DNA of 40,814 bases, from contig JAJXUE010000027.1 of the NCBI GenBank assembly GCA_021783135.1, forward strand, positions 1 to 40,814, written 5' to 3'. The notes below the pieces were generated by a model. It did not search any database and was not told the DNA's origin. It saw only the letters and a program-made list of their open reading frames with translations. This stretch comes from Bacillota bacterium (GTDB taxonomy: Bacteria > Bacillota > Desulfitobacteriia > Desulfitobacteriales > JAJXUE01). Position 1 is the stretch's first letter. Each line of letters starts with the position of its first letter. This document shows, piece by piece, positions 13,101-38,626 of this stretch. The position numbers and the translations under genes are program-made.

Positions 13101-14264
13101 TTGCGGCGTTTGTTACGGAGTATACGAGCAACTGTGGCAACAACCGAAGGAAAATTAAAAGCAATAGTATTAGTCTGCGGGTTCCTGCTCTTGATTTTAG
13201 CGCTTATGGTCGGAGCCCTCCAACTTACCAGCACGCCGCTATTTTGCCAATCCTGTCACGAAATGCGGCCGGAATATGTGACTTGGAAAGCTAGTGCGCA
13301 CAATAAAATCAGCTGCGTGGACTGTCATATTGAACCAGGTGCGCAAAATTTTGTTAAACACAAGCTGAACTCCTTTAAACAAATCTATGACCATTTTACG
13401 GGCAACGTGCTCACGCCGATTTCTTTGGATATTCCGATTAAAGACGCTGTTTGTGAACGTTGTCACAGCACTAACCGCGTAGTTACTCCAACCGGTGATA
13501 TCCAAATACCCCACAGGGTGCATAAACAAAACGGGGTGACCTGTGTCACCTGCCACAGCGCCGTAGTGCATGCCAACATATCTGAGGCAGGATTTACTGC
13601 CGACGGGAATTGGACCAAGTGGCCCGATACTGTGGGCAAGGCCTACGTGCGTCACGATTTTATGAAATTTTCTATGACAGATTGCCTGAAGTGCCATAAA
13701 GAACAGGGCAAGGGTCCCGGCCCGGATGACTGCAAAGCTTGTCACACTAAACTGGTCAAGCCCGCCAGTCATCTCGTTCCGAACTTTCTTAACGGACAAC
13801 ACGGGCAAATGGCGTTACAAGATGTAGCTCAATGTGATAAGTGTCATCAAGTAACGCATAACAGCAAGACCCTGCACAACTCGTCCGACAATCCTGCAGT
13901 AGTTTACGCCAGGACCAATGATTTTTGTACTAACTGTCATATGAAAAGTAAGCCGGCGAGGCATGGGGTGGATTGGCGTAAGGCCCACGGGGCACTTGCA
14001 GCACAAAACAAGGCTGGCTGCCTGGTATGCCACGACGAAAGTAAACCAGTCGACAAGGGTGTGGCTACAATTACCTACTGTTATCAGTGTCACGTAGCGC
14101 AAATCCACAGTCAGCTTAAGTTAAACGGCCATCCTAGATATAACCTAGGCCCACAACCGGAACTAACGAGGTACCCCTGTTTGCAATGCCACACGCAAAG
14201 GGTATGTTTAAAGTGTCATTACGTACCTGGAGTTAGCCAAGTACAATCCGAAACTAGTCAATAA
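13101..14264 (+). CDS. NapC/NirT-like membrane-anchored cytochrome c with 12 heme sites
   Basis: The 387-residue protein has one N-terminal membrane anchor (about residues 20-43) and then an extracytoplasmic domain with twelve CxxCH heme-attachment motifs. The N-terminal part, with FCQSCHEMRPEY and ISCVDCHIEPG, is NapC/NirT-like, the family that oxidises membrane quinols and passes electrons outward. The family usually has four or five hemes, so this is an extended form. The start is TTG with GAAGGTGA upstream. It leads a run of TPR, NHL and hexaheme genes on the same strand. The likely role is quinol dehydrogenase for extracellular electron transfer; nitrite or sulfur-compound reduction cannot be excluded. 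Confidence 0.88.
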   Translation: MRRLLRSIRATVATTEGKLKAIVLVCGFLLLILALMVGALQLTSTPLFCQSCHEMRPEYVTWKASAHNKISCVDCHIEPGAQNFVKHKLNSFKQIYDHFTGNVLTPISLDIPIKDAVCERCHSTNRVVTPTGDIQIPHRVHKQNGVTCVTCHSAVVHANISEAGFTADGNWTKWPDTVGKAYVRHDFMKFSMTDCLKCHKEQGKGPGPDDCKACHTKLVKPASHLVPNFLNGQHGQMALQDVAQCDKCHQVTHNSKTLHNSSDNPAVVYARTNDFCTNCHMKSKPARHGVDWRKAHGALAAQNKAGCLVCHDESKPVDKGVATITYCYQCHVAQIHSQLKLNGHPRYNLGPQPELTRYPCLQCHTQRVCLKCHYVPGVSQVQSETSQ

Positions 14265-14274
14265 GAATAATAAC

Positions 14275-14300
14275 TGTCAAATTATTTTTGCCATTTGACA
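14275..14300. promoter_or_regulatory. Inverted repeat TGTCAAAT-N10-ATTTGACA
   Basis: A perfect 8-bp inverted repeat with a ten-base spacer lies between the 12-heme cytochrome gene and the TPR gene. It could be an operator or an mRNA-stabilising hairpin. There is no T-tract, so it is unlikely to be a terminator. Confidence 0.4.
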
Positions 14301-14330
14301 CCACACAATATGAAAGGAGACATTAACAAC

Positions 14331-15029
14331 ATGGAAAAGCTAAACATTTCCCCTCAACCTGAAGTTAATCTAACCGCAGCAGTTGCCAACAAACCCCCAG
14401 TGCAAACTATATCCTACACCAAAGCTTTGATTATCTTTATAGTAACGTTAATGGTTATAGGCAGCGGAGGGTATGCCCTGGGAAAGTACAAATTCTGGCG
14501 AACCTATGATACGACACCGCGTTTGGACCGAGAAGAATCCCTCTGGCTGGAACGAGCCAACGCGGATACCAACAACCCTGACAATTATGTTGAACTTGGC
14601 TGGGTCTATTTTCAAAAAAAACAGTATGACAAAGCAGAATCAGCTTACAAAAAGGCACTTGCTTTGGACGATAAAAACTATAAGGCTCATTTGAACCTGG
14701 GTATAACTTATCAGCAAGAACAGAAAGACGATCGTGCAATTACTGAACTGGAAAAGGCTATCGAAATTGCTCCCAAGGCTCAGGCGGCGCATCTCAGTCT
14801 AGGACAGCTCTACTTTGCCAAGGCTAACTGGGCCAAGGCAGATAGTGAACTCGAAGCAGCGTACAAGGCCAACCCAGGGGATGCTGAGGTTTTATATAAG
14901 TTAGGTGTGACGAAGGAAAAACTAGGTAAGAAAAGTGACGCTATAGATGTTTACAGGCAGGTGCTTTCTTTCATGCCCGAACAACAGGATGCTAAGGGTG
15001 CGCTAGCTCGTTTAACCGCAAAGAAATAA
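14331..15029 (+). CDS. Membrane-anchored TPR protein of the cytochrome cluster
   Basis: The ~232-residue protein has a short cytoplasmic N-terminus, one membrane segment at about 35-57, and then an external domain with at least three tetratricopeptide repeats between about 83 and 230, for example NYVELGWVYFQKKQYDKAES and HLNLGITYQQEQKDDRAI. TPR domains bind other proteins, so a scaffold or cytochrome-assembly role is plausible. ATG at 14331 is chosen because AAGGAG precedes it by 11 bases; an upstream in-frame start lacks a ribosome site. It lies between the 12-heme and NHL genes and is probably co-transcribed. It has no heme motif of its own. Confidence 0.8.
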   Translation: MEKLNISPQPEVNLTAAVANKPPVQTISYTKALIIFIVTLMVIGSGGYALGKYKFWRTYDTTPRLDREESLWLERANADTNNPDNYVELGWVYFQKKQYDKAESAYKKALALDDKNYKAHLNLGITYQQEQKDDRAITELEKAIEIAPKAQAAHLSLGQLYFAKANWAKADSELEAAYKANPGDAEVLYKLGVTKEKLGKKSDAIDVYRQVLSFMPEQQDAKGALARLTAKK

Positions 15030-15057
15030 CTAAATTATAGGAGGTGAATCCGGCTTT

Positions 15058-16095
15058 ATGCCGGGTGCGATGTCAACAACAACAGGTGCTTCACCAACTC
15101 CCTTGCAAAAAGGGATATCAAAAACGAAATTTAATATTGCACTTACCTTAGCGGCTTTGTTACTTATTGCCATTTTTCTCTTCACCTATTTTACCGGACG
15201 AAACGTGTTTAAGCCTGTCACTCAGGCCTTAACTTTTAACCCAGGCCCTCCTGCTTATATTTACTCTATTTATGGCGAAGGAGCTGAAGGCCAGCTGAAA
15301 AAACCTATGGGTGTAACTGTCGCCAACAGTAGAATTTATGTGGCTGACACCTCAAACCAGCGGGTACAGGTTTTTGACTATAATGGCAAAGCGCTATTTA
15401 AATTCGGCAAGGATGGCAAAGGCGCCGGGCAATTTCAGTTTCCCTACGGAATCGCCGCGGATAGTAATGATCACATCTATGTAGCTGATATGTGGGCAAA
15501 TAATATTCAGGAATTTACCTCTGACGGGAAGTTCGTCAAGTATTTTGCCCGGGATAAGCAGGGTAAAAGTGAAATTGGCAAACCCACAGGGCTGTGTATT
15601 GTAAACGGCAAGCTCTATGAAGCTGATTTAAAATCAAATTCTGTTAAAGTCTTCGATATTGCCACGGAGAAGAAGGTTCAGGAAATTGGCAAGGAAGGAA
15701 AGGGTGCCGGCCAATTTGTAGCACCGAATTCAGTTGTTGTTACGGCTGATAAAATTTATGTCGGTGACAGCCAGAATGATCGGCTTGAAGCCTTTTCCCC
15801 AGATGGCAAATTCCTTTACAGCATGAATGGTGCTGATAACAGCGCCAGTACAAACTCTAAGACAATCACTGTCCGTGGAATTGGGGTAGACAGCCGGGGT
15901 GTCGTTTATGGCGCATCCATGTTGGGCAACTATGTGTGTGGTTTTGACAGCAAGGGTAAGTATCTCTGGACCTTTGGTGGACAGGGTATGGAAGATGGAC
16001 AGTTTATTCTCCCGAATGGATTATTTGTTGATAGCCAAGGTCGGATCTACGTGACGGATGAAGGCAACAACCGAGTCAGCGTCTGGGAGAACTAG
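15058..16095 (+). CDS. Membrane-anchored NHL-repeat beta-propeller protein
   Basis: The 345-residue protein has one N-terminal membrane segment (about 28-48), then a propeller of five or six NHL repeats. Repeats are seen as GVTVANSRIYVADTSNQRV, GIAADSNDHIYVADMWANNI and GLFVDSQGRIYVTDEGNNRV. The propeller faces outside the cell and probably binds a protein partner. NHL genes commonly accompany multiheme cytochromes in Geobacter and in Gram-positive metal reducers. AGGAGGTGA precedes the ATG by about ten bases. The gene is 28 bases after the TPR gene. The exact function is unknown; no catalytic motif is seen. Confidence 0.85.
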   Translation: MPGAMSTTTGASPTPLQKGISKTKFNIALTLAALLLIAIFLFTYFTGRNVFKPVTQALTFNPGPPAYIYSIYGEGAEGQLKKPMGVTVANSRIYVADTSNQRVQVFDYNGKALFKFGKDGKGAGQFQFPYGIAADSNDHIYVADMWANNIQEFTSDGKFVKYFARDKQGKSEIGKPTGLCIVNGKLYEADLKSNSVKVFDIATEKKVQEIGKEGKGAGQFVAPNSVVVTADKIYVGDSQNDRLEAFSPDGKFLYSMNGADNSASTNSKTITVRGIGVDSRGVVYGASMLGNYVCGFDSKGKYLWTFGGQGMEDGQFILPNGLFVDSQGRIYVTDEGNNRVSVWEN

Positions 16096-16176
16096 CAAAA
16101 TTAAGGAATTGAAAAGGGTACAAGCGGGTCGCCGCTATGCCGCTCTTTATTCAGTCAGGAAAGGGGGTGATAATCA

Positions 16177-17910
16177 ATGAGACTAAAAAGAGTTATAAAA
16201 AATGTTTATGAAAAGAAGGAGAGTTCTAAAGTGAAAAAAATTATTATCGTTGCAGGTCTTGCCATGTCGCTCATCATAGCGTCTGCTGTGAGCGCGTTTG
16301 CTGCAACAAACCTGGACACAAGTGCTAAAAAATACTTGCCAACCCCAGGGGGGACAACAATTGAAAGCGGAAAATATGTTGGAACGTCTGGCCCAAGTGC
16401 TGGCTATGCTCCAAACGATGTTAAATCAAACCTGCCCAGCGGCGCACCTAGCAAAGCTCCTGATGGTGGCCCGGCTGGCAGTCTGGTAACCAAAATCCAC
16501 AGCAACTATGCGTCCAACACCAACGCCTGTGCTGCCTGCCATGCTACTCACACCGGCGTAGGTGAAAGCCTGTTGCAATGGGATGGAATGACTGAAACCT
16601 GTATGGCATGCCATGATGGTACTGCAGGTGTAGCCACTTACAACGTCTCTGGCGGAGAAATCGGTACAACGGGAGCCATCACCAATGGCGGGCTATTCCC
16701 CACAAATGATAACACGGCAAACTCTAAGTCCATGCACGATGTATTTGGCGGCGTTCAAGTAACAGCTGCCCCTGGCGGCAACTTCGCCGCTACAGGAGCA
16801 TCGACTGCTGCTGACAAAGGTAATTTTAAGGAAGACTTTAGTTGTGTAAGCTGCCACTCCCCACACGGCAACGGCGCTAACTTCCGGATTCTTGATCCTA
16901 ACGTTAACGGTTTTGCTAACCTGCACACCAATAAAACTGCTGCTACCTGGGAAGTAGTAACTGCTCCTGACGCCACAGATAATACAAAGTGGGTAGTTAA
17001 AGCTGCTTTCAACGACGTAAACTCCACTGCTCCTTTCTATGCCTACCTGTTAACAGGCCCATATCCCTTAAAAGTCGGCGTTACAGCAAATAGTGCTTAC
17101 ACCGTAGACAATAACAATGGCTACACTGAAATTACCTTGGCATCTGCTCAAACTACTGCACCAACCGTTACCGGTAATGTCGCTGCTAAGGTCAAAGGAA
17201 CAGTTGACAATTATCTGCAAGCTAGCGAAAAGGTTACTTACATCAATGGTTTCAGTGATTTCTGCGGTGCTTGTCATACTGACTACAATACCGCTAATTA
17301 TACCGTAGGATCTACAACAAATGGGTATGGTGACAGATCCTTTGCCCAGGGTACATTTACCACAGCTAACGATGGCACAACCGCTAAAAATCCTCTTTCG
17401 CAAGATGCCCAGGGCAAACTTCCCGTTTATATTCCTTCCCATGCAGTGAGCATTGAAACCGGTACATTTACCCAGGCCTATCGCCATACTGTAGGTCTCA
17501 GTGCAGGTAAAGACGGTCACGGCAACGCTGTCAATGGTATGCCGTTTGAAACTCGTAAATATTTTGTCAATGGTTCTGCTTCTTTTACCGGCTATTACCT
17601 GAGCTGCCTGTCCTGCCACGTGGCGCACGGAACCGATAACAACTACTGGAAAGCTTATGCCGATCAAAGAGGAACAATGGGCGTTCCCGTAGCTGATGGC
17701 GGTACAGCGCTGTCTAGCGATGCTAAAGCAATCTACAACACTTCCGAGGTATTTGATACCAGCAATGCCAGCACCCCTGATGCCGGTAACGGCAACTATA
17801 TCAACTCGCGTGGTTCCAACCTTAAACGTATGCCTAACATGGCTGCTTGCGAAGGTTGTCACACCAAAGGGTTGAACAATCAAGGAGTTAACGCTACTTA
17901 TAATAACTAA
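16177..17910 (+). CDS. Secreted hexaheme cytochrome c
   Basis: The 577-residue protein has a signal peptide (VKKIIIVAGLAMSLIIASA, cut near AFA-AT) and six CxxCH motifs: CAACH, CMACH, CVSCH and CGACH between about 110 and 365, CLSCH near 485 and CEGCH near the C-terminus. Several continue as CHxxHG or CHxTH, a pattern of multiheme proteins with bis-histidine hemes. The long heme-free part between hemes three and four may be a binding domain. Two in-frame starts exist: ATG 16177, with a very strong AAAGGGGGTGAT site, and GTG 16231, with AAGGAG and a textbook signal peptide. It is the last plus-strand cytochrome gene and probably carries electrons beyond the membrane. Confidence 0.88.
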   Translation: MRLKRVIKNVYEKKESSKVKKIIIVAGLAMSLIIASAVSAFAATNLDTSAKKYLPTPGGTTIESGKYVGTSGPSAGYAPNDVKSNLPSGAPSKAPDGGPAGSLVTKIHSNYASNTNACAACHATHTGVGESLLQWDGMTETCMACHDGTAGVATYNVSGGEIGTTGAITNGGLFPTNDNTANSKSMHDVFGGVQVTAAPGGNFAATGASTAADKGNFKEDFSCVSCHSPHGNGANFRILDPNVNGFANLHTNKTAATWEVVTAPDATDNTKWVVKAAFNDVNSTAPFYAYLLTGPYPLKVGVTANSAYTVDNNNGYTEITLASAQTTAPTVTGNVAAKVKGTVDNYLQASEKVTYINGFSDFCGACHTDYNTANYTVGSTTNGYGDRSFAQGTFTTANDGTTAKNPLSQDAQGKLPVYIPSHAVSIETGTFTQAYRHTVGLSAGKDGHGNAVNGMPFETRKYFVNGSASFTGYYLSCLSCHVAHGTDNNYWKAYADQRGTMGVPVADGGTALSSDAKAIYNTSEVFDTSNASTPDAGNGNYINSRGSNLKRMPNMAACEGCHTKGLNNQGVNATYNN

Positions 17911-17954
17911 TCTTTAGTTGATAAGAATACGGTTGTTATCAGAACGGTTGTTCT

Positions 17955-17995
17955 CTAATCCTAGTACCCTAAATTAAAACGGCACGGGGCCCACC
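17955..17995 (-). other. Conserved two-part element, copy A
   Basis: On the plus strand CTAATCCTAGTACCCTAA is followed after exactly 16 bases by GCCCACC. Copy B at 21800-21840 has the same two blocks with one change and the same spacing. On the minus strand a small hairpin (AGAAC/GTTCT) follows the element, as a larger hairpin follows copy B. Here it overlaps the terminator of the hexaheme gene. Function unknown. Confidence 0.6.
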
Positions 17996-18010
17996 CCCGT
18001 GCCGTTTTTT
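17976..18010 (+). terminator. Intrinsic terminator of the hexaheme cytochrome gene
   Basis: A perfect 14-bp stem (AAAACGGCACGGGG and its complement) with a five-base loop is followed by six T residues. The A-rich left flank may allow it to work on the minus strand too. Confidence 0.95.
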
Positions 18011-18042
18011 ATCAGAAATAACCTGCTCCAAAATAAATTAAT

Positions 18043-18078
18043 CCCCCTGTGGTAGTGGTTTAATACCAGCACAGGGGG
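18043..18078 (-). terminator. Terminator of the giant cytochrome gene
   Basis: A 9-bp stem CCCCCTGTG/CACAGGGGG, with an inner TGGT/ACCA pairing, lies 15 bases beyond the minus-strand stop. On that strand the stem is followed by a T-rich run. Confidence 0.85.
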
Positions 18079-18092
18079 TTGATTATTTCAGA

Positions 18093-21000
18093 TTAATTGT
18101 ACCAAATATCTACCCTGTACCCAGAAGTCTGGTCTCCGGTGTTGTCGCCAAATACTGTTTTGTAACAACGTACGGTTAATAAACGATTGTCTCTTTTGAA
18201 CTCCACGGCAAAATAAGTCGGGCTAGCGCCCGGAGCGGGCGAATTGAGCTTCCAGCCATCCTTCGCAAGTTCTGTGTTGTAGAAATCCCACACATTGCTA
18301 GGATTGACATTGCTCCTGCTCGAAAGTACTACAGACCCGGATTTATAGCTGGTAACATAATCTAAGGGCAGCCCGGGGTCGCCGGCAAAAATGTTTGCGG
18401 CTATCGGCTGGCTGAAGGTTAGTCCTTGAAATTGAGGGATGTCAGGCGGTAGGTTGCCGGTAAGTGGCACTTTATGCGCCGTAGTATGGCAATTATTACA
18501 CGTTACTTGCCCATTGCGGATGGCACTTAACACAGTATTATTGGAACTTCCATGGCAGGTATTACAGGTATACCCTTTGTTGCTGGTCGTGAAGTTATTT
18601 AAGTGCTCAGTTTCAATGTTCGCACTGTGGCAGCCGGAACCTGTGCATTTGCTGTCAAATTGGCTGTCGTGCAACGAGGCGTGGTCGGTTTGTGTGTGGC
18701 AAGCGTCACAATTTGTAGCTTTGCCGGCGATTGCAGCTTTAACTTTAGTCGCTTCATCACCGCTGACTGTGGCGAGGTAAGTTTCACCGTGGCAGGTGTC
18801 GCACGTAATGGGATTACCATTTTTATCTTTGTTTTCCGGGCGGTTGTGTTCCTCGGTCAGGATACGCGAATGGCATTGGGTACATTCAGTTGTAGTTGAC
18901 AGGTGTTCGTCATTGACAGCATGCCGGTCATTAGGCAGGTTGCTCCACACCCAAGTGCGGTCCCAAGCATGGCGGCCGTTGATATAGGCGTTGTTGTAGT
19001 GACAGCCAATACAATCCTGAAAAACTTGCGCGTTGGACGCGATGGAAGTGAAGTTAGAGGCATGACACTGGAGGCATTGGTTAGGGGCGACGTGCTGCAA
19101 TTTATATTCTTGGGTATGGCAGCTCCAACATGTGGTGTTAGTTGTAACCTGCATATTCGGATAAATTTGCCCGATGTTGGTATCTACCGAGAAAGACCAC
19201 TTGCTGGTTGTGGCGTTGCCGGCGGCATCAAGCACTGTAAGCGATACGTTATGCGAACCATCGGCCAAAGCTGAGGGCACTTTGACCGCCAGACGATTGA
19301 AATGTGTATCTAGTACAGCGTCGAGAGTTTGGCCATCCAGCGAAAATGTACCGCCGGCAAGCGCGGAATTATCGCTGGCATAAGCCTCCAGTTCAGGGGT
19401 ACTCGTTGTCACTACAGAGGTCGGGGCAGTTTGCGTAATAACCGGAGGGCAATTAACGTTAAAACTCCAACTGGTCGTGGCTGGTGGTGCACCCGCTAAG
19501 CTTGGTACACTGACATTAATCGTATGTTTCCCATCGCCTAGGGATAGGGGGGTGTAGGAAATAAGAAATTCGGTGTCTTTCCCGGTTACCGTGGGTTGGA
19601 TTGAGGCTCCGCTATCGATCGTCATACTAGCATCTGCTGTAGCGTAAGCGTGGCTGAGATCAGAAAAGTGCACTGAAAGCACAGGTTTGTCAGTGGTTAC
19701 ACTGGACTGATCGGTAGGTGTTTGCTGGATAAATCCACTTTGTTGACCAATTGCAGCGGCGAAGAATTTCCACGTAGTACTTGCCTTATTTCCCGCTGTA
19801 TCAGAGGCTGCTAGTTTTACGGTATGCGTAGTATCATTATTTAAATTATCAGCAGAGAAGGTAACTGTCACGGTGCTGTCATTGACAGCCAGTAGCTGGG
19901 GGGTCACCTGCACAGCGTCAATTAATAAAGACACACTGTTTGGATCAACGCTATCGTTATCATTTACGGTCGCCTTGATTATGGGCCTTGCACTTATGAC
20001 CGCTCCATCTGCAGGTGAGATTGCGCTAAAGGAGGGAGGTTGATTCACACTGAATTGCCAAGTAGCGGTGCTGGAGTTCCCCAGCTTGTCGTTGGCAGTC
20101 ACCGTTAGCTGATGACTTCCGTCACGCAGAACAGGCGCGTTACAACTAATGGTGCCTTGCTTGTAACTGTCAATTACATAATAATCTCCGTCTGGATCCG
20201 ATTTAGTATGTCCGAGGTAGTTAAATGTAGCGGGCGCCTGGGTGTTATCAATCAGTACAGTGACGCTGTTGCTGAGATCGACATTTGATTGCATGTCGAT
20301 CAGGAAAGTGGGCTGAGCAGTGGCAAAGGTTTGGCCATTGCCGGCAAAACTAAGCGTGGGACCGGTGGTCTGTACCGTAAAAGACCATTCCTGGGAAGCG
20401 GTGTTGCCGGCAGTATCTGCTGCCACTACCCTCGCTGTGTGCGTGCCGTCAGGAATTGTGGCTTTGTAAGCTACCAGCCCGGTAGTTACGTCAAAAGTTG
20501 TGGCTACTGAGTGGCCGTCTAATTGTGCCTCTATACTGGCGGGATTTATCGCACTATTGTCCGTAACCTTGACAGAAAAGCCAGTATTATTCCTAGTTGC
20601 GGTTCCGGCAGCCGGAGTAGAGTTGGCGAAGACCGGCTTAACAGCAACAGGAAAATTCCAGGTTTTAAGAGCTGTTGTACCGACCTTGTCGACAGCTTGC
20701 ACCTCAACGCTGTGCTCACCGTCTTGAGCCCCTGATACCGCGGCCGAAATTGTTGCCTCTTTATCTGTGTCAGTGACCCAGTAATAACTTTCGGTAGTGG
20801 GGTTATCAACCCAATGCCCAGGATAGGCCATGTTGGCTGGGATATTCACGCCATCCAGCTTTACATAATAGCCGGAATTTTTTATGCCGCTGTATTGGTC
20901 GGTAACTTTGAAGCTAAGTGTGAAGTTGGCAGTTTGTTGTGTAGTACTGTTGGTAAAACTTAGAACGGGACCAGTTGTACTAACGGTGAAAGACCATTCT

Positions 21001-21683
21001 TTGGCAGCACTGTTGCCGGCTGCATCGGAGACCGCTACTTTCGCCTTATGGTTGCCATCCGGAAGGGTGGCCTTGTAAGCTACAATCCCTGAAATAGTGT
21101 CAAAAGTTGTGACCACAGGCTTGTCGTCAAGCTGTGCTGTTATGCTATCCGGGTTTATGGCGTCGTTATCAGCAACTTTCACCGCAAAACCACTATTGTC
21201 GGCAGTTGTGGCTCCGTCCGCCGGAATTGGGTTGGCGAAGGTTGGCTTTACAGCCACCGTAAAGCTCCAGGTCTTAGTTATTTTGATCCCGGAACTATCC
21301 ATAGCCTGTACCTCCAGCGTATGAGTTCCGTCTGTGGCCCCGGTTACCCCTGCCGACACAGTTGCTTGCTTGTAAGTGTCAATCACCCAGTCATAACTTT
21401 CGGTATCGGGATTATCTTCCCAATGACCCGGATAAGATAGCTTGGAGGTAAGCACCTTTCCGTCTAATTTAATGAAGTAATTAGCGTCTTGAATGGCATA
21501 ATCTGTATCAGTTACAGTAAATGAAACCCCAAAATTTGTCGTACTAAGGACCGCACTGTCGGTGGGATAAATTGCGGTTAGGGTCAGTCCGGGACTATCA
21601 ACCGCTAACGTAACGCTAACAAATGTGACTAACAGCACTAGGATGATTAGAGTACCAATTCCATACTTATTAGGCCTTTGCAT
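18093..21683 (-). CDS. Giant secreted Ig-repeat multiheme cytochrome c (9 heme sites)
   Basis: The 1196-residue protein has a signal sequence or anchor (about 9-28), a long array of about eight Ig-like/cadherin-like beta domains (about 30-845), a cytochrome region (about 850-1070), and a C-terminal alpha/beta domain of ~100 residues. The cytochrome region has eight CxxCH motifs (CWSCH, CLQCH, CIGCH, CTQCH, CDTCH, CDACH, CNTCH, CNNCH) and one CTGSGCH, a CX4CH site. Two adjacent ~215-residue blocks in the Ig array are clearly duplicated, sharing YPGHW-x-DNP and INP-S-I-x-AQLD. AAAGGAGG precedes the ATG. No SLH or sortase signal is seen. It is likely a surface terminal electron-transfer protein, with the Ig array spanning the wall. 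Confidence 0.88.
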   Translation of the reverse strand: MQRPNKYGIGTLIILVLLVTFVSVTLAVDSPGLTLTAIYPTDSAVLSTTNFGVSFTVTDTDYAIQDANYFIKLDGKVLTSKLSYPGHWEDNPDTESYDWVIDTYKQATVSAGVTGATDGTHTLEVQAMDSSGIKITKTWSFTVAVKPTFANPIPADGATTADNSGFAVKVADNDAINPDSITAQLDDKPVVTTFDTISGIVAYKATLPDGNHKAKVAVSDAAGNSAAKEWSFTVSTTGPVLSFTNSTTQQTANFTLSFKVTDQYSGIKNSGYYVKLDGVNIPANMAYPGHWVDNPTTESYYWVTDTDKEATISAAVSGAQDGEHSVEVQAVDKVGTTALKTWNFPVAVKPVFANSTPAAGTATRNNTGFSVKVTDNSAINPASIEAQLDGHSVATTFDVTTGLVAYKATIPDGTHTARVVAADTAGNTASQEWSFTVQTTGPTLSFAGNGQTFATAQPTFLIDMQSNVDLSNSVTVLIDNTQAPATFNYLGHTKSDPDGDYYVIDSYKQGTISCNAPVLRDGSHQLTVTANDKLGNSSTATWQFSVNQPPSFSAISPADGAVISARPIIKATVNDNDSVDPNSVSLLIDAVQVTPQLLAVNDSTVTVTFSADNLNNDTTHTVKLAASDTAGNKASTTWKFFAAAIGQQSGFIQQTPTDQSSVTTDKPVLSVHFSDLSHAYATADASMTIDSGASIQPTVTGKDTEFLISYTPLSLGDGKHTINVSVPSLAGAPPATTSWSFNVNCPPVITQTAPTSVVTTSTPELEAYASDNSALAGGTFSLDGQTLDAVLDTHFNRLAVKVPSALADGSHNVSLTVLDAAGNATTSKWSFSVDTNIGQIYPNMQVTTNTTCWSCHTQEYKLQHVAPNQCLQCHASNFTSIASNAQVFQDCIGCHYNNAYINGRHAWDRTWVWSNLPNDRHAVNDEHLSTTTECTQCHSRILTEEHNRPENKDKNGNPITCDTCHGETYLATVSGDEATKVKAAIAGKATNCDACHTQTDHASLHDSQFDSKCTGSGCHSANIETEHLNNFTTSNKGYTCNTCHGSSNNTVLSAIRNGQVTCNNCHTTAHKVPLTGNLPPDIPQFQGLTFSQPIAANIFAGDPGLPLDYVTSYKSGSVVLSSRSNVNPSNVWDFYNTELAKDGWKLNSPAPGASPTYFAVEFKRDNRLLTVRCYKTVFGDNTGDQTSGYRVDIWYN

Positions 21684-21771
21684 TTTCTCGTTCCTCCTTT
21701 AATTTTCTTGTCCCCCTCCTAAACGGTATGCTTATCTCGCGCTTTGCTATGACCTTTTAAGCAGCTTGAAC

Positions 21772-21807
21772 AAAAAAAGGACTAGGGAAGACTTATTCCC
21801 TAATCCT
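21772..21807 (-). terminator. Intrinsic terminator inside the giant-cytochrome leader
   Basis: On the minus strand a 12-bp stem (AGGATTAGGGAA with TTCCCTAGTCCT, one G-U pair) with a six-base loop is followed by seven T residues. It lies about 90 bases upstream of the start codon and downstream of a good promoter, so it would stop transcription before the gene unless relieved. This is the layout of an attenuator or riboswitch expression platform. Confidence 0.75.
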
Positions 21808-21840
21808 AATACCCTAAGGCGCATGGCCTCAGCGCCCACC
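21800..21840 (-). other. Conserved two-part element, copy B (leader of giant cytochrome)
   Basis: CTAATCCTAATACCCTAA plus GCCCACC after 16 bases (plus-strand reading) matches copy A. Read on the minus strand it is GGTGGGC, 16 bases containing a possible GGCGC/GCGCC hairpin, then TTAGGGTATTAGGATTAG running into the left arm of the leader terminator. The overlap could allow alternative folds. No known riboswitch class was recognised. Confidence 0.6.
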
Positions 21841-21865
21841 GCTAGCCAAGCACCTTTTCGATATA

Positions 21866-21894
21866 ATATTACTATTTAATAGTATACACGTCAA
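21866..21894 (-). promoter_or_regulatory. Promoter of the giant cytochrome gene
   Basis: On the minus strand TTGACG, a 17-base spacer, then TAATAT fit a housekeeping sigma-A promoter. Transcription would begin near 21859, giving an untranslated leader of about 175 bases that contains copy B and the leader terminator. Confidence 0.7.
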
Positions 21895-34215: not shown

Positions 34216-34398
34216 AGGTGGGGTAGAGGCGCGGACTATCAATAGTATCCGGAGTAGAGGGGGCTCTATGAGACCGGAGAAAGGGATATTCGCCGAAGTG
34301 TGCGGGTCACCCGGATCCGTATAGCTGGGTCTGCATCGAATAGGTGCAGGACTGTCACTTGCAGTTTTTGCCGACGGCAAGTGGAGAACTATCTCACA
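34216..34398 (+). ncRNA. Lysine riboswitch (L box)
   Basis: The leader holds the conserved lysine-aptamer blocks in order: GGGTAGAGGCGCGGACTATC, AGTATCCGGAG, GGAGAAAGGGATATTCGCCGA cut to its core AGGG-ATATTCGCCGAAG, a GTATAGCTGGGTCTGCATCG stretch, AGGACTGTCACTTG and the closing CTATCTCAC. P1 pairs 34218-34226 with 34389-34397 using G-U pairs. Bound lysine would favour the terminator at 34437 and lower lysA expression, a feedback on lysine synthesis. The position directly upstream of lysA supports the call. Confidence 0.95.
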
Positions 34399-34436
34399 TC
34401 AGGGGAAAGCAAGGGGCTGCCGTTTTATGTCTGAAT

Positions 34437-34475
34437 GGACGCTAACGGGGTTCTACCCCTGTTGTCGTCCTTTTT
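34437..34475 (+). terminator. Riboswitch-controlled terminator before lysA
   Basis: The stem GGACG...CGTCC encloses AAC/GTT and GGGGT/ACCCC with small internal loops and is followed by TTTTT. It lies 40 bases after the aptamer and ends before the lysA ribosome site, as expected of a transcription-terminating expression platform. Confidence 0.88.
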
Positions 34476-34501
34476 ATATTTTGCGAAATGGAGTGGTATG
34501 G

Positions 34502-35845
34502 ATGAAACTACAGGGAACAATGGAGATTAATGAGCAAGGGCACTTAGTGATCGGCGGGTGCGATACAGTCGAACTGGCGCAGGAATTCGGCACACCGTTA
34601 TATATTATGGACGAAGACCAAATCAGGCGGACATGCCGCGAATACTATCGTTCGTTTGTGAGTCGGCACGGCAATGCAGAAGTTATCTATGCTAGCAAAA
34701 CTTTTTCGACAGTGGCAATGTGCCATATTATTAAAGAAGAAGGCTTGGGGTTGGACGTAGTTTCCGGTGGCGAACTGTACACGGCTTTGGCCGCGCACTT
34801 CCCGGTTGAACGCATTTACTACCATGGCAATAATAAAACCCCGCAGGAACTGGAGACGGCGCTTGAAGCCAGAGTAGGGCGCATTGTGGTGGACAATTTT
34901 CGTGAATTGGAGCTACTTAACGCTCTGGCTGCACAGCATCAGAGAGTGGTAGATGTCTTAGTGCGGGTAACACCTGGAATTGAAGCCCATACGCACGAAT
35001 ATATCCAAACAGGCCAAATCGATTCCAAATTCGGCTTTACGCTCCCGAATGGTGATGCCATGCGTGCGATTAAGGGCGTTATTGACGCAGACCATCTGAA
35101 TTTCCGTGGCGTGCACTGTCACATTGGTTCGCAAATCTTTGAATTGGCATCTTATAGTTATACCGCACAAGTTATGCTCGAATTGAGTCAACAAATATAT
35201 CAAGAGACTGGGGTTTATGTGCGCGAGCTTAACCTCGGGGGTGGCTTCGGTATTTACTATGCCAGTGGGGACGACCCAGCGCAAATTTCCGATTATGCCG
35301 ATTTAGTTATGACCACCGTCAGCGAAACGGCAGATGCCCTGGGCTTGCCAGTGCCAAAAGTCATAGTTGAACCCGGTCGGAGTATAGCAGGGCCGGCCGG
35401 CACTACTCTCTACACAGTGGGCTCGCTCAAGGACATTCCGGGTGTACGCAAATACGTAGCGGTTGACGGCGGCATGGCCGATAACCCTCGCCCTGCCTTG
35501 TATCAGTCCTGTTATGAGGCCATTGTCGCTAATAAGGCATCTTTGGCCCCTGAAACAGTAGTATCAATTACCGGCAAATGCTGTGAGTCAGGCGATATGC
35601 TGATTTGGGATATTGAACTGCCGGAAGTCGTAAGCGGCGACTTGCTTGCGGTATCATGTACTGGAGCTTATAACTATTCCATGTCGTCCAACTACAATCG
35701 CTTGGCTCGGCCCGCCGTGGTTCTGGTCAAAGACGGTCAAGCGGATGTAATTGTGCAGCGTGAGACTTACGCGGACATAGTGAGAAATGACGTGGTCCCG
35801 GCAAGGCTGCTGAACGTCACCAATCTACGCGCTGCCAGTCGCTAG
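34502..35845 (+). CDS. lysA: Diaminopimelate decarboxylase
   Basis: This ~447-residue PLP enzyme makes L-lysine from meso-diaminopimelate, the last step of lysine synthesis. The PLP lysine is in YASKTFS near residue 63. FGFTLPNG near 174, GVHCHIGSQIFE near 200, NLGGGFGIYY near 245, EPGRSIAGPAGTT near 290 and CESGDML near 361 are all typical. The ATG at 34502 has GGAG about eight bases upstream. The frame is open back to 34427, but those codons lie inside the riboswitch terminator, so the upstream start is rejected. Expression is expected to fall when lysine is plentiful. Confidence 0.96.
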   Translation: MKLQGTMEINEQGHLVIGGCDTVELAQEFGTPLYIMDEDQIRRTCREYYRSFVSRHGNAEVIYASKTFSTVAMCHIIKEEGLGLDVVSGGELYTALAAHFPVERIYYHGNNKTPQELETALEARVGRIVVDNFRELELLNALAAQHQRVVDVLVRVTPGIEAHTHEYIQTGQIDSKFGFTLPNGDAMRAIKGVIDADHLNFRGVHCHIGSQIFELASYSYTAQVMLELSQQIYQETGVYVRELNLGGGFGIYYASGDDPAQISDYADLVMTTVSETADALGLPVPKVIVEPGRSIAGPAGTTLYTVGSLKDIPGVRKYVAVDGGMADNPRPALYQSCYEAIVANKASLAPETVVSITGKCCESGDMLIWDIELPEVVSGDLLAVSCTGAYNYSMSSNYNRLARPAVVLVKDGQADVIVQRETYADIVRNDVVPARLLNVTNLRAASR

Positions 35846-35920: not shown

Positions 35921-36010
35921 CGTATATCCCTATGTGAGACCTACCCCTCACTTTTATCGGCGTGAGGTAAATGGTATAATTAGACGTTATACTTGGATGG
36001 GGTGGCTGGG

Positions 36011-38626
36011 TTGGAACTAATTGTATCACATAATAATACCGACTTTGACGGGCTGGCGTCCATGGTGGCGGCGAGTAAGCTCTACCCGGAAGCGACTATG
36101 GTTTTCGAGGGCAAACCGACCAGGCAGGTGCGCGAATTTTTGGCCCTGCATAAAGATGCCCTGCCGATTTCGGATCTAAAGTCCATAGATTTGTCTACGG
36201 TCAGCAAGGTTGTCATTGTGGATACACGCTCGGCAGAGAGGCTTGGTTCTTTAGCTAAGCTGATTGCGGAGCCCCAGGTCGAACTGCACATTTATGATCA
36301 CCACCCTAAGCGTGAGGGAGACCTTGTCGGAGCTTGGGAACAAGCGGAGATAATCGGTGCCACGACTACTCTCATGGTGGAAAAACTGCGTGCCGAAGGG
36401 TGTTTGCTTTCCAAGTTTGAAGCTACTTTATTGGCACTTGGCATTTATGAAGACACCGGCAACCTGCTGTTTGAAAGTACAACCGCGCGTGATGCCGCTG
36501 CCCTAAGCTTTCTTTTGGCGTGCGGGGCTAACTTAAAATTAGTCAGTGAGTTTCGGGACCGGCCCTTGTCGCGGGAACAAAAATCCCTGCTTAATATGTT
36601 GCTCACCGCAGCTCGGCACTATTTGATCCGTGGCGTGCGAGTGTTAATCTGTGCAACTTCTCTGGATGAGTTTGTGGCCGGGTTGGCTCTATTGACCCAT
36701 AAAGTGGGTGAAATTGAAAATATCGACTTGATTTTTGCTGTGGTTAAAATGGATGACCGAGTCCATATCGTTGCCAGGGGTAAAGGGAAAAACGTCGCCG
36801 TTAATGACATTTTAAGTGAGTTTGGCGGTGCAGGTCACCCTAAGGCGGCTTCCGCCACAGTTAAAGGCGGCGATGTCACTGACTTAATCAATCGCATCCT
36901 GTGCTTGTTAGAAGAACGTATTGTACCCGATGTCCGGGCCCGCGAAATTATGTCAATTGCTGTAAAAAGCATCGACAGCTTAAGTCGTATCAGGGATGCC
37001 GGTGATCTGCTACTGCGCTACGGACATACGGGCTTACCGGTAGTGGATGAGGGCAAACTCGTAGGCATAATCTCGCGCCGCGATGTAGATAAGGCCTTGA
37101 ACCACGGTCTGGGTCACGCACCTGTAAGCGGATATATGTCCCGTAAAGTAATTACTGTTGACATGGATGCACCTTTAAATGAGATTGAATCGCTAATGAT
37201 AGAACACGATATTGGCCGCCTCCCCGTTGTCAGCGGTGGTATTTTAGTGGGGATTCTATCTCGTTCTGATGTGCTGCGAACCTTGCATGGGCAAGCTATA
37301 CCGGTAAGCCGGCAAATCATGCTGCAACGCAGCGAGGCCCAGGGTCATGATGTTCTACGCCTGCTGGAAGAACAGCCGCAGGACGTCAGGGATTTATTTC
37401 GCTTGATTCACGCTTTGGGTGAAGCGCATGGTTTAGCTGTTTATGTCGTGGGGGGGTTCGTGCGTGATCTGTTGTTGGAGATCCCCAATCTTGATATAGA
37501 CCTGGTAGTAGAAGGAGACGGGCTAAAGTTTGCGGCAGCGCTGGCGACGGAGCTTCAAGTAAAAGCCCAATTTCATCCGCAGTTTGCGACAGCTAATATG
37601 CGTAGTAGTTCCGGCCTGCAGCTTGATATTGTCACGGCGAGGACTGAACACTACCCTTCTCCGGCCGCCTTGCCGCTAGTGGAGACTTCATCGCTAAAAC
37701 AGGATTTATATCGGCGCGACTTTACGATCAATGCGATGGCAATCGCGCTGACTGGGGAGAAGTACGCCAGCCTGCATGATTATTACGGCGGCTATCGGGA
37801 TTTGCAACAGGGCGTAATTCGCATTTTGCACAACTTAAGCTTCGTGGATGATCCTAAGCGTATCGTACGTGCCATTCGCTTCGAGTGCCGGTTGCGTTTT
37901 CGCTTGGAAGCGCAGACGAGCCAAATGCTGCAACAGGCCGTAGGCGATCGGTTGTTGGACTGCCTGAGTCGTGACCGATTAAGGGACGAATTAAGCTTGG
38001 TTTTGCAGGAAAAACAGGTGGGAAAGGTTATCCGGCGGCTTGTCGAGCTTGGCCTCTGGCAGCAAATAATGCCGCATAAATCGGACTTCGAGCCAATAAG
38101 TTTAAGTAATAATGCGCAGGACGCCGTAGGCAGGATGCAAGAGCTGGGTTTGTGGGGGCACGCCAAAGCCTGGCACGTCCAGTTGGCAGTCCTATTTCGC
38201 ACGGTCTCGCCTCCAGATACGGCAACAACTCTGCAAAAGCTCAATTTTGACCGACGCAGTATGCGTGTCGTGCAGGAGTTTCAGCATAGTTATCAAGTCT
38301 TAAAAGGTTTTTTATCCAACCAAGGCGAATTGAGCATGGTAAATGTGCATCGCACATTGGCAAAATTACCGACGGAAGTCGTGTGCGCGCTATTGGCGAT
38401 GCCGGAGCTGCAGGCACACGTAATTGCTTATTTACAGGCAAGGTCGACGGTCAGAGTGATGGTTACTGGTGACGACTTGCAAGCTCTGGGTGTACCTGCC
38501 GGTCCTCTGTATGCTAAAATATTGGATGCATTATGGGAGGCCAGGCTTGCAGGGGGCGTCAAGGATAAGGCAGAGGAAATGGCACTGGTGCAAAAAATTC
38601 TCGAGGAGGTACCTGATGGATCTTAG
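36011..38626 (+). CDS. DHH-CBS-CCA tRNA nucleotidyltransferase
   Basis: The ~871-residue fusion has three parts. Residues 1-310 are a DHH/DHHA1 phosphoesterase (HNNTDFDGLASM near 7, DTR near 75, DHHPK near 97, GGAGHPKAAS near 275). Two CBS domains span about 312-435. A class II nucleotidyltransferase covers about 445-871, with GGFVRDLLL and LDIDLV near 480-495 (catalytic aspartates), RRDFTINAMA near 570, and DPKRIVRAIRFECRL near 610. It adds C or A residues to tRNA 3' ends; in lineages with two such enzymes this fused form is often the A-adding one. TTG 36011 fits the family N-terminus, though the ribosome site is close. Confidence 0.93.
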   Translation: MELIVSHNNTDFDGLASMVAASKLYPEATMVFEGKPTRQVREFLALHKDALPISDLKSIDLSTVSKVVIVDTRSAERLGSLAKLIAEPQVELHIYDHHPKREGDLVGAWEQAEIIGATTTLMVEKLRAEGCLLSKFEATLLALGIYEDTGNLLFESTTARDAAALSFLLACGANLKLVSEFRDRPLSREQKSLLNMLLTAARHYLIRGVRVLICATSLDEFVAGLALLTHKVGEIENIDLIFAVVKMDDRVHIVARGKGKNVAVNDILSEFGGAGHPKAASATVKGGDVTDLINRILCLLEERIVPDVRAREIMSIAVKSIDSLSRIRDAGDLLLRYGHTGLPVVDEGKLVGIISRRDVDKALNHGLGHAPVSGYMSRKVITVDMDAPLNEIESLMIEHDIGRLPVVSGGILVGILSRSDVLRTLHGQAIPVSRQIMLQRSEAQGHDVLRLLEEQPQDVRDLFRLIHALGEAHGLAVYVVGGFVRDLLLEIPNLDIDLVVEGDGLKFAAALATELQVKAQFHPQFATANMRSSSGLQLDIVTARTEHYPSPAALPLVETSSLKQDLYRRDFTINAMAIALTGEKYASLHDYYGGYRDLQQGVIRILHNLSFVDDPKRIVRAIRFECRLRFRLEAQTSQMLQQAVGDRLLDCLSRDRLRDELSLVLQEKQVGKVIRRLVELGLWQQIMPHKSDFEPISLSNNAQDAVGRMQELGLWGHAKAWHVQLAVLFRTVSPPDTATTLQKLNFDRRSMRVVQEFQHSYQVLKGFLSNQGELSMVNVHRTLAKLPTEVVCALLAMPELQAHVIAYLQARSTVRVMVTGDDLQALGVPAGPLYAKILDALWEARLAGGVKDKAEEMALVQKILEEVPDGS

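Follow-up and report, generated by a model that had tools for sequence, protein, structure and literature searches.

A two-part direct repeat around a multihaem cytochrome gene of the Desulfitobacteriales is a family-restricted RNA feature and most likely forms an antisense pair controlling a terminator

The window analyzed here, a stretch of 40,814 nucleotides from a bacterium of the Desulfitobacteriales (genome G000, 2.7 Mb), contains two multihaem cytochrome genes that face each other on opposite strands (Table 1), P0002 coding for a 577-aa and P0001 for a 1196-aa protein. The former closes a plus-strand cluster (13101-17910) made up of a NapC/NirT-type multihaem cytochrome, a TPR protein, an NHL-repeat propeller and P0002 itself, and the same cluster is present in two family-mates, here termed G001 (JAJZPO010000008.1) and G002 (JAJYNB010000009.1); in G001, extra copies of it lie beside the locus, including a 60% identical cytochrome pair. 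Elsewhere in the window, an ordinary lysine riboswitch (Rfam RF00168, 101.9 bits; 34216-34399, plus strand) stands directly upstream of the diaminopimelate decarboxylase gene lysA (34427-35845), and the plus-strand region 35993-38626 encodes an 877-aa protein with a full-length match to A-adding tRNA nucleotidyltransferase that falls below the model cut-off (680 versus 1440 bits).

Table 1. Features of the convergent cytochrome locus, in window coordinates.
Feature	Position	Strand	Remark
P0002, multihaem (CxxCH) cytochrome, final gene of the NapC/NirT cytochrome - TPR - NHL-propeller - cytochrome cluster; copy A lies in the 3'UTR	16177..17910	+	
Copy A antisense stretch UGUUCUCUAAUCCUAGUACCCUAA in the P0002 3'UTR; complements copy B linker and terminator 5' half (24 bp, 3 G-U)	17949..17972	+	
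14-bp hairpin of copy A with CCCAC (part of GCCCACC) as loop, then T-run: P0002 intrinsic terminator; loop complements copy B loop	17976..18010	+	
Second strong inverted repeat between the convergent genes, immediately behind the P0001 stop; the U-rich tract after it is broken	18043..18078	-	Possible P0001 transcript end before copy A
P0001, secreted protein of 1196 aa; repeats of the bacterial Ig-like kind, multihaem (CxxCH) domain at the C terminus	18093..21683	-	
Intrinsic terminator in the P0001 leader: 12-bp stem AGGATTAGGGAA/TTCCCTAGTCCT and T-run	21771..21807	-	Kept in both relatives
Linker and terminator 5' half of copy B, UUAGGGUAUUAGGAUUAGGGAAUA	21794..21817	-	Predicted target of copy A RNA
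Hairpin of copy B with loop GGUGGGC; three helices (outer, middle, inner) and, on the 3' side, a 2-nt bulge	21816..21856	-	Arms covary with relatives
Copy B promoter TTGACG-17-TAATAT	21866..21894	-	TTGACG-17-TAAGAT at the same place in G001 and G002

A sequence-only reading of this DNA had reported a two-block repeat flanking P0001, and both copies lie where it placed them, in the same orientation: copy A at 17955-17995 (CTAATCCTAGTACCCTAA-16-GCCCACC, plus strand) and copy B at 21800-21840 (CTAATCCTAATACCCTAA-16-GCCCACC, plus strand), identical at 17 of 18 and 7 of 7 positions and with spacers of 16 bases. At up to three mismatches the 18-mer is found twice in the window, against 0.07 occurrences expected from shuffled windows, an estimate that refers to a pattern picked after the fact. 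That the repeat is real follows from G001 and G002, each of which carries the same two-block element twice at the same locus, with flanking orthologous proteins that share only 34-75% amino-acid identity among the three genomes.

Copy B had been assigned to the leader of the minus-strand cytochrome gene, and the assignment holds. A promoter (consensus TTGACG-17-TAAKAT) occupies the same position in all three genomes, the hairpin starts near the expected transcript start and an intrinsic terminator comes next. Since P0001 lies directly behind copy B in two genomes, and no comparable promoter was found between the copy B terminator and the P0001 start codon, copy B can be taken as the P0001 leader. 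The terminator is perfect (AGGATTAGGGAA-loop-TTCCCTAGTCCT-TTTTTT), its 5' half is provided by the last part of the fixed strand of the repeat, and its location between promoter and P0001 is conserved in G001. The same structure accounts for one half of the earlier remark that a minus-strand hairpin follows both copies: at copy B this hairpin is strong and is the terminator (21778-21807 and T-run), but at copy A it is only weak.

Copy A does lie beyond the 3' end of P0001, as had been noted, starting about 100 nt past this gene, but it also starts 44 nt after the P0002 stop codon. In the three genomes, the distance from the convergent cytochrome gene's stop codon to copy A is 8 to 44 nt, and a T-rich tract (CCGTTTTTTAT, CCGTTCTTATTTTA and CCGTCTATTTTTTAT) comes after the copy A hairpin in the direction of this gene. 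Hence, copy A constitutes the 3'UTR and terminator of P0002.

In minus-strand orientation, both copies form a hairpin whose loop, GGUGGGC, is fixed and whose self-complementary arms are changeable, and the fixed strand UUAGGGUAYUAGGAUUAG comes 3' of it. The 16 spacer bases, which had been described as mostly different, do vary, but they are not free, for they make up the 3' arm of this hairpin, the loop of which is the GCCCACC/GGTGGGC block. The arms are straight in copy A (AAAACGGCACGGG / CCCGUGCCGUUUU, minus strand) and broken into three helices in copy B (AAGGUGC-U-UGGC-UAGC / GCUG-AG-GCCA-U-GCGCCUU, with AG as the bulge). Compared with shuffled sequences, the minus-strand folds reach z-scores of -4.9 (copy B) and -5.1 (copy A), and the plus-strand fold of copy A reaches -4.3. 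Between the copy B hairpins of G000 and G001, both partners differ in 5 of 14 pairs and a single partner in 2 more, and all are still paired; between those of G002 and G001, two C-to-U changes in the inner arm turn G-C into G-U pairs. Such G-U pairs are allowed in minus-strand RNA but would be mismatches on the plus strand, and the copy B arms therefore point to minus-strand RNA only. The suggestion of a structured RNA is thus supported, together with the covarying pairs that had been put forward as a check on it. A DNA-binding protein site was considered as well and rejected, because the arms are self-complementary and yet differ in sequence, a property that a double-stranded site does not need. 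No Rfam family matched at the gathering score, in agreement with the earlier failure to recognize a known family, and a relaxed search returned only sub-threshold chance matches. A first covariance model (R1), built on two sequences with a straight 12-bp stem that misfits copy B, served only to confirm the six copies.

Pattern searches covered 61 relatives and, more widely, 74 genomes from the order, 398 from the phylum and a collection of 84,980 species. The complete element was found only in G000, G001 and G002, with two copies in each, at a single locus and beside homologous convergent cytochrome genes. Further copies thus exist as one pair in each family-mate, but none was found at other loci, nor upstream of other cytochrome genes, where the sequence-only reading had proposed to look. 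The remaining matches in G000, at two or three mismatches, have no hairpin, and a reversed-pattern control gave about as many; where read, they resemble coding sequence. Other genera of the order yielded only weaker matches, without loop and hairpin, and the order search gave one loop-plus-linker match in genome G053. Across all six copies, loop and core linker are unchanged save for a few edge transitions and one at the Y position. The feature is a real, family-restricted RNA feature.

Both copies being terminator-associated hairpins at one locus, copy B could in principle be a duplicate of the copy A terminator, and the similarity a functionless remnant of its evolution. This explanation is very improbable: loop and linker have been kept in both copies in three genomes the flanking proteins of which differ by 25-66%, and the copy B arms have changed with compensation, a pattern of conservation that refutes it unless the locus was recently exchanged among the three lineages.

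The locus of G002 bears on another proposal, namely that the copies are the ends of an exchangeable 3.9-kb gene cassette. In this genome, copy B, complete with promoter and terminator, is directly followed by copy A, with no gene in between, on a contig where this pair is flanked by the convergent cytochrome gene and, at the opposite end, by a gene of the mannose-1-phosphate guanylyltransferase type; the coverage of this contig is low (1.2 in its name), which bears on the B-A junction. Two copies without a gene between them are in keeping with a mobile cassette, but an empty site with a single copy, as had been predicted, was not found: the relative that lacks the gene retains both copies, side by side. 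Moreover, the repeat was found at no other locus or genome searched, and neither a second site nor a single-copy one was seen; no transposase lies between the copies; the contents in G000 and G001 are homologous (51% identity over 769 residues) and occupy the same site; and copy B displays the anatomy of a promoter followed by a terminator. We consider the cassette barely credible. The G002 arrangement is not what recombination between the repeats would leave, and looks like the outcome of a deletion at the T-run. On another contig of G002 (contig 48, L043, 3-743, minus strand) there is part of a different Ig-domain gene, which matches P0001 at 37% in the Ig-like region; the RNA element is absent upstream of it and a response regulator gene adjoins it.

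Gene directions, promoter and terminators predict convergent transcription across the direct repeats, with copy A in the 3'UTR of P0002 on the plus strand and copy B in the leader of P0001 on the minus strand. A direct repeat located in two convergent, opposite transcripts yields complementary RNAs, and what the sequence-only reading had missed is that the copies lie on opposite transcripts and hence, as predicted from the sequence, are an antisense pair. In G000, the B RNA UUAGGGUAUUAGGAUUAGGGAAUA is complementary to the A(+) RNA UGUUCUCUAAUCCUAGUACCCUAA over 24 nt with three G-U pairs, and the reported repeat block, confirmed as far as it goes, was accordingly drawn too short. In G001 the complementarity likewise extends over about 24 nt; in G002 it covers about 23 nt and contains one A-C mismatch. 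The nearly unbroken complementary stretch spans the single-stranded linker of copy B and the 5' half of its terminator, and the loops are complementary as well. Copy A lacks the 3' half of the terminator, which the A(+) RNA itself resembles instead (GUUCUCUAAUCC versus CUUCCCUAGUCC). Given that copy A repeats the copy B linker and the 5' half of the terminator, and not the 3' half, the A(+) RNA mimics the terminator's own 3' half.

Cofolding of the two RNAs has the same predicted outcome in all three genomes: the copy B hairpin and the copy A terminator are kept, while the 5' half of the copy B terminator enters the intermolecular duplex and this terminator is lost. The net energy after terminator loss is -17.7 kcal/mol in G000, -20.1 in G001 and -13.9 in G002, and in each genome none of 200 shuffled A strands matched the native cofold energy. 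In the nascent B leader, transcribed to the end of the terminator 5' half, the loop is predicted to be open at 0.99-1.0 and the linker at 0.89-0.98; on the other side, the A loop is predicted to be fully open (1.0), and the A(+) stretch to be open at 0.54 in G000 (in isolation), 0.86 in G001 and 0.98 in G002. A search for copied terminator 5' halves over about 79 kb of sequence showed that, among 15 terminator-like sites in the window, only copy B has a long copy (20 of 23) of its linear region and 5' half; the other match was 15 of 17.

On these grounds we favor, with moderate confidence, the hypothesis that each copy supplies one half of an antisense RNA pair, in which the P0002 3'UTR would pair with the P0001 leader and prevent its termination. 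By default, the B leader RNA would terminate at the intrinsic terminator, some 80 nt after its start. In the presence of P0002 mRNA, or of a fragment from its 3' end, the CCCAC loop of this RNA would kiss the GUGGG loop of the nascent B leader, the copy B hairpin acting as a docking hairpin that exposes the GGUGGGC loop and has a single-stranded linker behind it. After loop contact the linker would zip, and the 5' half of the terminator would be occupied before the 3' half is made. With the terminator blocked, RNA polymerase would enter P0001, and both cytochromes would be made together. Conversely, terminated B RNA might influence the P0002 mRNA. We infer, in other words, that both RNAs are made, that they meet and that antitermination is the effect.

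Within the 20-nt core, 5 of the 6 differences between copies A and B are G-U compatible in the A(+):B(-) duplex, which is no more than a hint in favor of an antisense duplex, and the genomes are not independent. In cofolds across the three genomes, cognate A/B pairs are not consistently stronger than non-cognate ones, and the core, nearly identical across genomes, shows no covariation between A and B. Sequence comparison therefore cannot yet separate the antisense pair from a single minus-strand RNA motif used twice, that is, an aptamer or protein site consisting of the GGUGGGC-loop hairpin and the fixed strand behind it, which would compete with the terminator in copy B and belong, in copy A, to the 3'UTR of a P0001 read-through transcript. 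Such a motif would explain the invariant core equally well: loop and linker hardly differ between genomes or between copies, their spacing is nearly fixed at 15-16 nt, copy B overlaps a terminator in the manner of a riboswitch, and a two-tier quadruplex is conceivable from the G-rich blocks. However, copy A would then have to be transcribed on the minus strand, past the hairpin behind P0001 and with no evident promoter, and it would have neither terminator nor gene to control there, whereas plus-strand copy A is plainly the terminator of P0002. The lack of an Rfam family also speaks against this motif, as does the lack of any further copy in G000 or in some 85,000 other genomes, which would be unusual for a riboswitch, and we deem it unlikely.

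The persistence of the pair in G002 implies that regulation of P0001 is not its sole role, unless the gene loss is recent, and hints at a possible function of the RNA pair independent of P0001, for instance through B RNA acting on P0002 mRNA. Taken further, copy B might be mainly a small antisense RNA of about 80-90 nt, composed of promoter, hairpin, linker and terminator, that alters the stability of the P0002 mRNA through its 3'UTR, with P0001 being incidental. G002 does retain all four of these parts with no gene following them, and the complementarity is the same as for antitermination; but P0001 lies directly behind copy B in two genomes with no comparable promoter between them, and copy A contains the terminator 5' half as well, although a target serving only mRNA stability could do without it. 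A role confined to mRNA stability seems to us rather improbable.

The favored antisense pair, with antitermination as its putative effect, resembles several known systems in part. In pT181-type attenuators, formation of an intrinsic terminator is governed by an antisense RNA that docks on a leader hairpin containing interior loops; copy B has such loops too, a known requirement for the docking hairpins of antisense-responsive attenuators (PMC4878617). The pT181 antisense RNA, however, causes termination (PMC4878617), and the effect predicted here is the opposite; no anti-terminator strand, i.e. no complement of GGATTAGGG, was seen before the terminator in the B leader, and the terminator forms in the minimum-energy fold. 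The par locus of pAD1 (Fst toxin, RNA I and RNA II) likewise has convergent transcripts across direct repeats that yield complementary RNAs, and uses a terminator loop as kissing site (PMC7472228). There, a small toxin is silenced through masking of the translation start, and the RNAs share a terminator (PMC7472228), whereas the present locus involves large cytochromes, a transcription terminator as predicted target and a separate terminator for each RNA; no Fst-like small hydrophobic toxin was found at the locus. In the parts of the literature considered, 3'UTR-derived sRNAs show that mRNA 3' ends can act on other transcripts (PMC9438474), and convergent overlapping transcripts that opposite neighboring genes can regulate each other through RNA (PMC7154746). 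Those passages of the former work on transcription termination that came up in a keyword search describe Rho-dependent cases, with no antitermination at an intrinsic terminator among them. A survey of the open literature found natural RNA-mediated antitermination only against Rho, in the rpoS and rho leaders (PMC6582626), and no natural counterpart of the synthetic activators known as STARs (small transcription activating RNAs).

RNA activation by blocking an intrinsic terminator, the mode of action of these STARs, is so far known mainly from synthetic biology. If the mechanism proposed here is true, an activator residing in the 3'UTR of a neighbor would show how RNA alone can bring about the joint expression of opposite genes, two parts of an electron-transfer system would be coupled without a protein regulator, and a simple search rule would follow, namely to scan convergent 3'UTRs for copies of terminator 5' halves. 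The question bears on the regulation of multihaem cytochromes in Gram-positive bacteria, about which little is known. Synthetic STARs bind the linear region and the terminator 5' half of their target (PMC5648800), and copy A(+) has both complementary parts, located on the opposite transcript. We advance, more tentatively than the antisense pair, the notion of a natural STAR, in which the P0002 3'UTR would activate convergent P0001 by kissing its leader hairpin and occupying the terminator 5' half, without a protein regulator. STARs are engineered (PMC5648800), whereas the putative activator would here be natural, reside in the 3'UTR of a neighboring mRNA and add a kissing hairpin to the contact.
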